Shown here piece after piece: positions 3,962 to 9,423 of a stretch of 35,834 nt of DNA. Within the stretch, counting starts at the first letter, position 1; the number at the start of each line of letters is the position of its first letter. The notes under the pieces are model-generated. The model worked only from the letters and a program-made list of their open reading frames with translations. It did not search any database and was not told where the DNA came from. Origin of the DNA: Candidatus Aenigmarchaeota archaeon LH_S6 (GTDB taxonomy: Archaea > Aenigmatarchaeota > Aenigmatarchaeia > QMZS01); assembly GCA_023659935.1 (NCBI GenBank), contig JAGXOK010000006.1, positions 1 through 35,834 on the forward strand. Direction: 5' to 3'. A program made the translations under genes and the position numbers.

Positions 3962-4121
3962 AAACCAAAATTTCGTTAGAGTTGAATATCCTAAATCAAT
4001 TATAAATTGTCAACTTTTACCGATATTGTCTTTATTCCCCCATATCTCTAAAAATTTTGATGGTCTAAAAATTGAAGTAAAATTATGTTGGACACCGTCC
4101 AATAATAAATAAAGTATATTT

Positions 4122-4421
4122 ATGGTGAAAGAAAAAAATAGAAAGAAAATAAAGAAAATTTTGTTGACTCTAGTAAAAACTCCAGAAGGGTTGTGGGTTA
4201 GAGAGATAGCAAGAGAGACAGGTATTGCTAAATCCACAGTCCATTATTATATAGATAAAGTTATAAACGAAATCATAGAAAATATTGGTGTAAAAGATAA
4301 GTCTGGTAGGTATTTTGGTGTAAGAATTATAAGATTAAAGCCTAAAATAAGAGATACTATTGAAAAGGAAGGTTTGAAAAAGGTATATAAATTCTTAAAA
4401 ATATCTAAAAATAGTACGTGA
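4122..4421 (+). CDS. Winged-helix/HTH DNA-binding protein
   Basis: VKTPEGLWVREIARETGIAKSTVHYYIDKVINE, typical HTH. Confidence 0.75.
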   Translation: MVKEKNRKKIKKILLTLVKTPEGLWVREIARETGIAKSTVHYYIDKVINEIIENIGVKDKSGRYFGVRIIRLKPKIRDTIEKEGLKKVYKFLKISKNST

Positions 4422-4752
4422 ACTGGATGTGAATAGCGTGAAATTCACGTGAACTGGATGTGAACAGCGTGAACTTTAGGTGAACTTGGCGTGAATAGCG
4501 TGAACTTCAGGTGAACTGGATGTGAATAGCGTGAACTTCACGTGAACGTAAAGTCCAAAATTTCAGGGTTATAGTTAAAATAAAAGGGTCGTGTGAATCT
4601 AGCGTGAATAGCGTGAAATTCACGTGAATTGGATGTGAACAGAGTGAACTTCAGGTGAACTTGGCGTGAATAGCGTGAACTTCAGGTGAACTGGATGTGA
4701 ACAGCGTGAACTTCACGTGAACTCGATGTGAACAGCGTGAACTTCACGTGAA
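4418..4752 (+). repeat. Iteron-like array, left part: 13 GTGAA (4418-4546) and 16 GTGAA (4593-4752) in 11-9-11 bp spacing
   Basis: GTGAA starts at 4418, 4429, 4438, 4449, 4460, 4469, 4480, 4491, 4500, 4511, 4522, 4531, 4542 and 4593, 4604, 4613, ... 4748; 31-bp period. Confidence 0.95.
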
Positions 4753-4892
4753 GTAAAAAGACGTTTTATATAATGGATTTTCCAAAAAAATAAATAAATA
4801 TTTTTTTGATTTGTTGTTTTGATATAAATTTGGTTTTTTATTTATATATAACTATATAATTATGTAGCCTGTAGATAACTATCAAAATATAA
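4753..4892. other. AT-rich segment between the two repeat blocks (candidate DNA-unwinding element)
   Basis: Near-uninterrupted A/T between repeat blocks, e.g. aaataaataaatatttttttgatttgttg and tttatatataactatataatt. Confidence 0.5.
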
Positions 4893-5001
4893 ATGAACTT
4901 CAGGTGAACTTGGCGTGAACAGCGTGAATTTCACGTGAACTGGATGTGAATAGCGTGAACTTCACGTGAACTGGATGTGAATAGCGTGAACTTCACGTGA
5001 A
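4893..5001 (+). repeat. Iteron-like array, right part: 10 GTGAA plus one degenerate ATGAA, same 31-bp register
   Basis: GTGAA at 4904, 4915, 4924, 4935, 4946, 4955, 4966, 4977, 4986, 4997. Confidence 0.95.
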
Positions 5002-6282: not shown

Positions 6283-6528
6283 AAGTTCAAAAATGGTTCA
6301 AGAAAAACAAAAGTTAGATTAAGACAAAGATTTCTATGCAAGGATTGTAAAAAAACTTTTGTTTTAGAAGTTATCAAAGGAAAGAAAGCACAAACAGATA
6401 TAATAACCTTAACTATGGATTTATATTTCAAAACTTTTTCATTAAGAGATATTAGAGATACAATCAGCCAACATTTTAATATTAATTTATCCCATGAAAC
6501 AATTAGAAGGTGGATAAGCAGTTTATGA
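6283..6528 (+). pseudogene. Transposase remnant (zinc-ribbon/HTH N-terminal part only)
   Basis: Translated KFKNGSRKTKVRLRQRFLCKDCKKTFVLEV...LYFKTFSLRDIRDTISQHFNINLSHETIRRWISSL*; DDE catalytic region absent. Confidence 0.6.
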
Positions 6529-6598
6529 ATAAAATGAATGAATAAAGTATATATCCTACTACTAAAATCCTTAAATATAAGTAATAAGTATATATATT

Positions 6599-6854: not shown

Positions 6855-7331
6855 ATGGTTAGAGTTTATTATCCTTATCGTATTTTAGTAGATTATTTTT
6901 TTGTTAAACAATGGATAAGTGAAGGTAAGAGGTATGAAATATTTACTAGATTAATGAAAACTAAAGCTACTTCTTCAATACATAAGAAATCACATAATTT
7001 AATGTTAGATGAAGATTTTGATAAAATAGTAACCGACAAAAAACTAAACTCAAATATTTTAGGAGCTATGGTAAAAAGGATAGATATACCTCCGTCTTTA
7101 AAAGAAATAAAAGACCCTATAACTAAAACCATCTTATTTTCTATCAGATTGAGTTCTATAGCACCTTATGGTGTTTATATATTTACAAATGAGGAAACGA
7201 AAGAGAAATATGAAAATAATAGACACTATATAGGTATAAAATCTGTAGTAGCTGTACCTTTTCGGAAAGCCTTAAGAATTGTAGATAGTTTCCATAACTT
7301 ACTTATCGGAGAAAGAGATCTTTTTCGGTAA
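6855..7331 (+). CDS. Hypothetical protein, likely translated from MVRVYYPYRILVDYFF
   Basis: Second ORF of a two-gene unit; no recognised family. Confidence 0.55.
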   Translation: MVRVYYPYRILVDYFFVKQWISEGKRYEIFTRLMKTKATSSIHKKSHNLMLDEDFDKIVTDKKLNSNILGAMVKRIDIPPSLKEIKDPITKTILFSIRLSSIAPYGVYIFTNEETKEKYENNRHYIGIKSVVAVPFRKALRIVDSFHNLLIGERDLFR

Positions 7332-7412
7332 ATTTGGATAAATTCAACTTATCAACCGCATTTGACAGTTTTATTTATCAACCGTAGATTAGACAGAAAG
7401 AAGTTTATAATT

Positions 7413-7429
7413 TTATAACATTGTAATAA
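7413..7429. promoter_or_regulatory. Palindromic motif copy 4 (TTATAACATTGTAATAA)
   Basis: In the candidate origin. Confidence 0.75.
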
Positions 7430-7530
7430 CTTAGGATGTTTTGAAGTTAAAGAAAACCAAAAATTTCTTTCAACCGAATGCGACACTTTTATCTATCAAC
7501 CTTAATTGCGACAGAAAGAAAAATATTATA

Positions 7531-7547
7531 TTATTACATTGTTATAA
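7531..7547. promoter_or_regulatory. Palindromic motif copy 5, reverse orientation (TTATTACATTGTTATAA)
   Basis: In the candidate origin, 118 bp after copy 4. Confidence 0.75.
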
Positions 7548-7573
7548 TGTATGGAAATAAGATAATATTATAA

Positions 7574-7598
7574 CATTCCAATGGAAACAAAGGGGAGT
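7574..7598 (+). promoter_or_regulatory. ORB-like origin recognition box upstream of orc1/cdc6
   Basis: cattccaatggaaacaaaggggagt resembles the archaeal ORB core (TTCCAnTGGAAACnAAnGGG). Confidence 0.8.
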
Positions 7599-7681
7599 CC
7601 CACTAACATTCCAAAATACATTTTCTAAAAGATATAATAAAAAACCAAAAACTATATATAATTTCCATACGAAATATAGGT

Positions 7682-8878
7682 ATGCAAAAGAAACTTAAAA
7701 AATATTTTTTGGAATACCTTAACAAACAAGGTTTTTTTATTAATAAAAATCTACTAACCCCTAATTATATACCAAATGAAATCTTACACAGAGATGAGCA
7801 AGTTTCAAATATTGCAAAGGTTCTAGCCCCAGCATTGAAAGTAGAGCAACCCTCAAATTTATTTATTTATGGGACAACAGGAACAGGAAAATCTGTTGCT
7901 ATAAAATATATTTTTAATGAATTAATAAGTACAAAAAACACAAATTTTAAACTCATTTATATAAACTGTAAATTAAAGAAAACATCAGATACAGAATATA
8001 GAATGTTGGCTTATATACTTAAAGAATTAAATTTTCCAGTTCCAGATACGGGATTGCCAACAGAAGCCCTATATAACAAATTGTTTGAGTTACTAGACAA
8101 TAAAAAACAAATTTTCCTACTTGCTTTGGATGAGTTAGACGCACTTGTTAAAAAAATAGGGGATGGGCTTTTGTATAATCTGACAAGGATAAACACAGAA
8201 TTAAATAAATCAAAAATTAGCATTATAGGAATATCCAACGATATTTCATTTACAGATTATTTAGACCCAAGAGTAAAAAGTTCATTATCTGAAGAGGAGA
8301 TAATTTTTCCTCCTTATAATGCAATGCAATTAAAAGATATTTTACAAGAGAGGGTAAGAATTGCATTAAAACCAGGAATTTGTTCTGAGGGGGTTATAAG
8401 TAAATGTGCAGCTATAGCAGCTCAAGACCAAGGAGATGCGAGAAGGGCTTTAGATTTATTAAGGGTTGCAACAGAAATTGCTGAAAGAAATGAAGATATA
8501 GAAATTACAGAAAATCATGTAACTATTGCAGAGCAGAAATTAGAATTAGATAGGGTTGTGGAGTTAGCGAAAGTTCAACCAAAGCATTCACAATTAACTC
8601 TTTATTCAATTTTAAAACTTTTTGAAAAAGGTACCGAGCAGATTTTGACAGGAGATGTTTATGAAATCTATTATTTACTTTGTAAAAGAAATGGGTATAG
8701 ATTTTTAACCCAAAGAAGGGTTTCTGATTTAATTTCTGAATTAGATATGCTTGGGCTGATTTCAACAAAAGTTGTTTCAAAAGGAAGATATGGGAGGACA
8801 AGAGAGATTAGAATAGCAATCGCAAAAAAACCTTTTGATGTTTTAAAATCATATTTTTCCAATTTGTTTGAAATATGA
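7682..8878 (+). CDS. cdc6: Orc1/Cdc6 replication initiator
   Basis: LHRDEQVSNIAKVLAPALKVEQPSNLFIYGTTGTGKSVAIKYIF; LDELDALV; GDARRALDLLRVATEIAE; C-terminal wHTH. Confidence 0.95.
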   Translation: MQKKLKKYFLEYLNKQGFFINKNLLTPNYIPNEILHRDEQVSNIAKVLAPALKVEQPSNLFIYGTTGTGKSVAIKYIFNELISTKNTNFKLIYINCKLKKTSDTEYRMLAYILKELNFPVPDTGLPTEALYNKLFELLDNKKQIFLLALDELDALVKKIGDGLLYNLTRINTELNKSKISIIGISNDISFTDYLDPRVKSSLSEEEIIFPPYNAMQLKDILQERVRIALKPGICSEGVISKCAAIAAQDQGDARRALDLLRVATEIAERNEDIEITENHVTIAEQKLELDRVVELAKVQPKHSQLTLYSILKLFEKGTEQILTGDVYEIYYLLCKRNGYRFLTQRRVSDLISELDMLGLISTKVVSKGRYGRTREIRIAIAKKPFDVLKSYFSNLFEI

Positions 8879-9423
8879 CATTAACTTATGAAATAATTAG
8901 AGAAGTTAAACAAAAAGAAAAATCAGAAAAGTTGCAATACCTCCCAGAAAATTTTTTTGAAGATGTAGCGGAATATATCAAACTAAAAAAAGGAGCCATA
9001 GAAGAAACAGCTGCGAAAAATCTTGTCCAGAGCATCTTTGAATTAAGAAGAAAGAAAATTTTAAATATTGCTTCAGTCTCCTACAAAACAGAAAAAATAC
9101 CTGAAAACTTGGAGGAAAATGAAAAAAGATTATATCTAAATATAATCAAACTTTTGAGAGAAAATTTTGAAAGAAAAACAATTATATCTTCTGAAAATAA
9201 AGCTCCACAGAATAAAAAAGAAGTAAAAAAACCAGAAGAAATTCAGAACTTAGAGGATAAAAAAACAAGATTAACTAAAACAAAGGTCATGTTTTTAGCA
9301 GATATCCCTGAAATATTTTTACCCTCTGGCAACTCTTGTTCTTTTAAAAAAGGAGAAGAAAAAGAAATTGATTTGAAAGTTGCCAAAGTTTTAGAAGAAA
9401 AAGGATTTTGTAGATTAGTATGA
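8875..9423 (+). CDS. Archaeal GINS complex subunit
   Basis: 4-bp overlap with cdc6; C-terminal VMFLADIPEIFLPSGNSCSFKKGEEKEIDLKVAKVLEEKGFCRLV. Confidence 0.8.
   Translation: MTLTYEIIREVKQKEKSEKLQYLPENFFEDVAEYIKLKKGAIEETAAKNLVQSIFELRRKKILNIASVSYKTEKIPENLEENEKRLYLNIIKLLRENFERKTIISSENKAPQNKKEVKKPEEIQNLEDKKTRLTKTKVMFLADIPEIFLPSGNSCSFKKGEEKEIDLKVAKVLEEKGFCRLV

Follow-up and report, generated by a model that had tools for sequence, protein, structure and literature searches.

A helically phased GTGAA array beside an AAA+ ATPase gene, a probable docking site for chromosome maintenance in Aenigmarchaeota

We describe an array of GTGAA pentamers, set at helical spacing between a gene for a small winged-helix protein and a gene for an AAA+ ATPase, in Candidatus Aenigmarchaeota archaeon LH_S6, a member of the DPANN group (Candidatus Aenigmarchaeota/Aenigmatarchaeota). 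The three-part module of array, AAA+ ATPase, and small winged-helix protein is single-copy in most genomes, extends across most of the phylum, and is tied to the orc1 region. On sequence grounds, we proposed that an undescribed system of chromosome maintenance probably docks at the array; in our leading reading, to which we would assign a probability of about 0.45, it is an origin-linked nucleoprotein scaffold of the module's own AAA+/winged-helix proteins, most likely centromere-like in role. To our knowledge, the copying and separation of chromosomes in DPANN archaea are largely unexplored, and, to judge from titles and abstracts, none of the open-access papers retrieved on replication origins or chromosome segregation in Aenigmarchaeota appears to describe this locus. 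Its spread and its tie to orc1 open the module to direct tests with purified proteins and by read-depth profiling.

The phased array and its neighborhood

The window (the whole stretch of 35,834 nucleotides that was analyzed) is contig C60 of the host assembly G000, which comprises 729 kb and is ~71% complete. On the + strand, the winged-helix gene (4122), the array, the ATPase gene (5016), two small unknown ORFs, the Orc1/Cdc6 gene (7682), and a GINS gene (8875) follow one another; the upstream side carries pyrG on the - strand and genes for an OB-fold protein, Alba, and a Rad50-like N-terminus. The main features are as follows.

4122..4421, + strand: 99-aa winged-helix (IclR/HTH_24-like) DNA-binding protein, first gene of the module (profile matches; 18-sequence family alignment)
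4418..4546, + strand: block 1, 13 GTGAA boxes at 11-9-11 bp (box starts 4418-4542)
4593..4752, + strand: block 2, 16 GTGAA boxes with the spacing of block 1 (box starts 4593-4748)
4753..4903, no strand: A/T-rich spacer with the TATA-like TTTATATATAA; best 60 bp 90% A+T
4904..5001, + strand: block 3, 10 GTGAA boxes (box starts 4904-4997), between the A/T-rich spacer and the 5016 start codon
5016..6077, + strand: 353-aa AAA_22 ATPase with a C-terminal winged helix (profile matches; homologue alignment)
7331..7681, no strand: probable Orc1/Cdc6-type origin region (ORB TCCAATGGAAACAAAGGG at 7577-7594, 78-bp direct repeat, two 17-bp palindromes)
7682..8878, + strand: Orc1/Cdc6 replication initiator (profile match)
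8875..9423, + strand: GINS subunit, Sld5/Gins23-like (profile match)

A recount in the letters of the window gave 39 GTGAA on the + strand at 4418-5001, in blocks of 13, 16, and 10 with box-to-box spacing of 11, 9, 11, 11, 9, 11... bp inside the blocks, in agreement with the sequence-only reading. Among 200 dinucleotide shuffles, the maximum was 5 GTGAA per 600 bp, compared with the 39 observed, and 2 consecutive 9- or 11-bp gaps, compared with 36. The palindrome TTCACGTGAA is present in 8 copies in the array, and the first GTGAA box overlaps the 4122 gene and supplies its TGA stop. The 31-bp register claimed for the array held within the blocks but not across the gaps: blocks 2 and 3, which start 175 and 486 bp after block 1, are offset from its register by 20 and 21 bp, and only a 10.33-bp phase persists. 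Computed from the box positions, the two distances are 16.94 and 47.05 times 31/3 bp (10.33 bp), near-whole multiples, which indicates that the helical phase is preserved across the gaps. The proposal that the boxes lie on one face of the helix, suited to a cooperative protein array, was likewise supported. When the whole 729-kb assembly was searched with the degenerate 31-bp unit, no second place was found. We rejected a CRISPR array, since the units run head to tail without spacers, and a structured RNA, since there was no Rfam match and helical spacing on both of the strands speaks for a site in DNA.

The A/T block between blocks 2 and 3, put at ~140 bp in the sequence-only reading, is present at ~150 bp, but has no clearly separate, distinct counterpart in other families. 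Its composition and TATA-like element suggest that it is probably an archaeal TATA-type promoter region of the 5016 gene, and it might possibly serve as an unwinding element. This layout bears on the idea that the array serves purely as a large cooperative operator for repression or autoregulation of the AAA+ gene by one of the two proteins. The array always lies on the promoter side of that gene, with block 3 following the TATA-like region and preceding the start codon, which favors this idea; however, 15-39 boxes over 300-1000 bp far exceed the usual need of an operator, 29 of the boxes in the window lie >250 bp upstream of the AAA+ gene, and the persistent orc1 linkage is left unexplained. 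We consider a purely regulatory array credible but less likely than the scaffold.

Conservation of the module across the phylum

The AAA+ gene was found in 111 of 156 Aenigmarchaeota genomes, usually as a single copy. Upstream of it, GTGAA outranked all other pentamers (512 in total) in 18 of 37 loci, and in 35 it was one of the four highest. Among the 32 genomes outside the host family, it was the most enriched pentamer (mean z 8.1), and same-strand distances between GTGAA peaked at 11, 21-22, 31-33, 42, and 52-53 bp, which indicates helical phasing; opposite-strand pairs were likewise phased. The strict phased-triplet pattern occurred in 63 of the 156 genomes, and nearly all of the places listed, when compared by eye with the ATPase coordinates, lay just upstream of the ATPase, whereas the reversed control pattern (AAGTG triplets) was found in only a handful of genomes. 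One genome of family f12 without the ATPase (G044) had 16 matches of the reversed control, perhaps representing another phased or tandem repeat.

The tie between the array and the flanking 4122 and 5016 gene families, as suggested from the window, was supported: phased GTGAA lies upstream of ATPase homologues in most other families, and the objection that homologues might lack the array mostly fails, with a weak array or none at a few distant homologues (L061, L046, and L047). The converse concern, a satellite present at many unrelated loci, mostly fails too, as phased triplets are seldom found at other places in the genomes; a neutral satellite is ruled out by the phylum-wide conservation.

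In the same genus and family, three loci (L011, L012, and L013) retained the order winged helix, array, ATPase, and their arrays consist of TTCACGTGAA palindromes and GTGAA half-sites. A 97% identical relative (G007) had fewer boxes than the window; the difference between the blocks appears to consist mainly of whole repeat units, and repeat collapse in short-read assembly is possible. In G004, the contig that carries the ATPase gene breaks off 132 bp upstream of it, and the winged-helix gene is at the edge of a different contig; this suggests that assembly breaks account for some of the absences in the genus. Such apparent variation by whole units between near relatives, and contigs of metagenome-assembled genomes (MAGs) that break inside the array, would fit a neutral tandem repeat or an assembly artefact; yet one motif, phasing, and gene are common to dozens of genera, and we regard this explanation as highly improbable.

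The ~100-aa winged-helix protein gave strong matches just upstream of the ATPase in many clades. Phased boxes also occurred in genomes without a winged-helix match at E<=1e-5 (G012, G013, G018, and G024; also G152 and G154), which indicates that the ATPase is the constant partner of the array. Two diverged ATPase loci were observed in G107 (C1, 255 kb and 461 kb); the two densest GTGAA clusters of this genome were each in a sampled stretch containing one of these loci, and a small winged-helix gene adjoins only the 461-kb copy.

Relation to orc1 and to replication origins

In 16 of 25 genomes (9 of 14 families), no more than 30 kb separates the module from orc1/cdc6, compared with ~7% expected by chance under a binomial that ignores shared ancestry; in G117 and G127 the module is far from orc1. 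In the window, a canonical ORB (Orc1 box) stands directly before orc1, 2.6 kb away and separate from the array. ORB-like sites precede orc1 in several families, and none was detected upstream of the AAA+ gene in the 37 loci searched. GTGAA was not enriched before orc1 (35 seen and 33 expected in 24 genomes), with G022 and G023 as local exceptions. The array is thus probably not the main origin, because the ORB sits separately upstream of orc1 and the arrays contain none; on the same ground, we rejected its membership among Orc1 origins. These ORB and GTGAA results set the array apart from the Orc1 origin and do not tell a replicator from a centromere.

Cumulative skew was mapped for four contigs, and three of these each make up a whole single-contig assembly. 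The module of G117, at 329 kb, lies near the GC-skew minimum (318.9 kb) and the TA-skew maximum (322.9 kb), with orc1 295 kb off and p=0.08 for the skew range. The GC skew of G107 was significant but about 70 kb off the module, and G103 and G074 gave no skew signal. The skew signals thus disagree among these genomes, and, with the ORB separate from the array and none in the arrays searched, the iteron-type main origin that had been suggested was not supported.

These data also bear on the possibility that the AAA+/winged-helix protein is itself an initiator, and the array with its A/T-rich gap its own origin or an initiation-control site beside the Orc1 origin. An AAA+ domain followed by a winged helix is the Orc1/Cdc6 domain order, archaeal origins typically adjoin the gene of their own initiator (PMC4010727), and the module is linked to orc1 and GINS; the skew extremes of G117 near the module, far from orc1, and phased boxes flanking an inverted ORB pair in G090 point the same way. 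However, a second origin at 2.6 kb from the first would be redundant, the absence of ORB from the arrays and of GTGAA enrichment before orc1 argues against it, as do the displaced or missing skew signals and the p value in G117, and the A/T-rich gap is not distinct in other families. We consider such a second replicator credible but less likely than the scaffold.

The locus in G090 (L190, C4 12391-12594) has phased GTGAA boxes on both sides of an inverted ORB-like pair, and could possibly be an origin with both signals; the adjoining long minus-strand ORF, read by eye, resembles a family B DNA polymerase.

Several other elements were observed around orc1 in the window. Direct repeats of 78 bp, 78% identical (7352-7429 and 7470-7547), immediately precede the ORB and orc1. 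A 17-bp palindrome unrelated to the array, TTATNACNNTGTNATAA, occurs at 1382, 3946, 6214, 7413, 7531, and 9424 (six copies in 8 kb around orc1, two of them just upstream of the ORB), with 0.13 matches per window expected by chance and only two further places in the rest of the genome; in G004, about 28 sites are spread over many contigs. This palindrome may be a site dispersed over the origin region, or else the operator of a regulator. Between the ATPase and orc1, a remnant at 6284-6530, read by eye, resembles the zinc-ribbon/HTH start of a transposase, and transposase-type inserts may account for the variable ATPase-orc1 distance in the genus.

Proposed role and comparison with known systems

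Across 39 aligned ATPase homologues, the Walker A glycines, lysine, and threonine, the Walker B DE, and R231 are invariant. The nearest model was the ExeA-like pepcterm_ATPase (TIGR03015, 4e-24), followed by a phage DNA transposition ATPase family (1e-16), and profile matches place the protein on the ExeA-like side of AAA_22. Assignment to Orc1/Cdc6 was rejected (Orc1 model only 0.009; 26% probability in profile comparison with Orc1), so the gene adjoining the array is not Orc1/Cdc6 by these profile tests, which covered Orc1/Cdc6 only, with WhiP outside the search. A structure model, built from three sequences, had a mean pLDDT of 42.6, too poor for fold comparison. Phages gave no match, plasmids distant ExeA-like ATPases only, and viral contigs two weak matches. 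Two transposition ATPases of this broad clade, MuB and TnsC, assemble into helical filaments on DNA, which we take as a lead only.

We proposed that the array is bound by the module's own proteins, most likely by the 5016 AAA+ ATPase with its C-terminal winged helix, joined in many clades by the ~100-aa winged-helix protein (4122). One winged-helix domain would dock per GTGAA box, and, with boxes one helical turn apart, neighboring subunits would touch and build a one-sided filament or scaffold, which the boxes and the TTCACGTGAA dyads would nucleate and whose polarity the dyads would reverse. With the Orc1/ORB origin a few to ~30 kb distant, this scaffold would most likely have a centromere-like role, organizing or separating the origin region once it has been copied, and block 3, next to the promoter, would also let it regulate its own gene. 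Against a centromere-like scaffold, no ParA adjoins the array and the ATPase belongs to a class other than ParA. More tentatively, and with some doubt on our part, the module may represent a new partition or origin-control class, in which an AAA+ ATPase of ORC/ExeA/MuB-like type, carrying a winged helix of its own, polymerizes on a helix-phased GTGAA array and replaces ParABS/SegAB across Aenigmarchaeota.

Compared with bacterial ParABS, TTCACGTGAA equals the center of parS, TGTTTCACGTGAAACA, with the inner 10 bp identical, and both systems pair a site near a replication origin with an ATPase, the module being near orc1 in the 16 of 25 genomes noted above. However, the bases outside the inner 10 bp differ from parS (GTTCACGTGAAC), the array consists of tens of phased half-sites whereas parS sites are separate 16-bp sites, and its ATPase is AAA+ (AAA_22) rather than ParA-like. 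ParB (PF17762) was absent from all host-family genomes listed, which are incomplete MAGs (G000 ~71%), and gave only a few convincing matches in the phylum. Because ParB is missing from the host family, we rejected ParB/parS membership and read the likeness to the parS core, seen at the sequence level, as a resemblance; a parS-like center in lineages without ParB would represent convergence, worth a structure. Near-full-strength matches to PF13614 (ParA-type) occurred in only six genomes, with one intermediate; this profile mostly detects MinD-like proteins, so there is no clear anti-correlation, and we rejected the proposal that the module replaces ParA.

Archaeal SegAB resembles the module in having sites just upstream of a segregation operon, but SegA is ParA-like, SegB is unrelated, and neither is in the module; no segA or segB was found at the site, the neighbors being pyrG, winged-helix, AAA+, orc1, and GINS genes. 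An archaeal Orc1/Cdc6 oriC likewise has boxes, an A/T-rich stretch, and an adjacent AAA+ winged-helix gene, but the array lacks ORB and its ATPase is not Orc1/Cdc6 by profile. Plasmid iteron origins share direct repeats on one helix face near the gene of a DNA-binding protein, but iterons are ~20 bp long, whereas the array is chromosomal with a 5-bp box every 9-11 bp, and a profile search of the neighboring genes gave no match to a Rep family.

In the AspA-ParB-ParA system of pNOB8, AspA is a small winged-helix protein that is encoded beside its site and spreads along DNA, forming a helical array of protein (PMC5120986). The small winged-helix gene of the module also lies beside its site, but the AspA site is one 23-bp palindrome, and the module is without ParB or ParA. 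The small winged-helix protein had no sequence match to a solved AspA at E<=1, and comparison with the C-terminus of the ATPase revealed no kinship. A short palindrome precedes the small winged-helix gene (TTGGACACCGTCCAA at 4084-4105 in the window, and an GAACACTGTTC-type in L011, L012, and L013), and is perhaps this gene's own operator.
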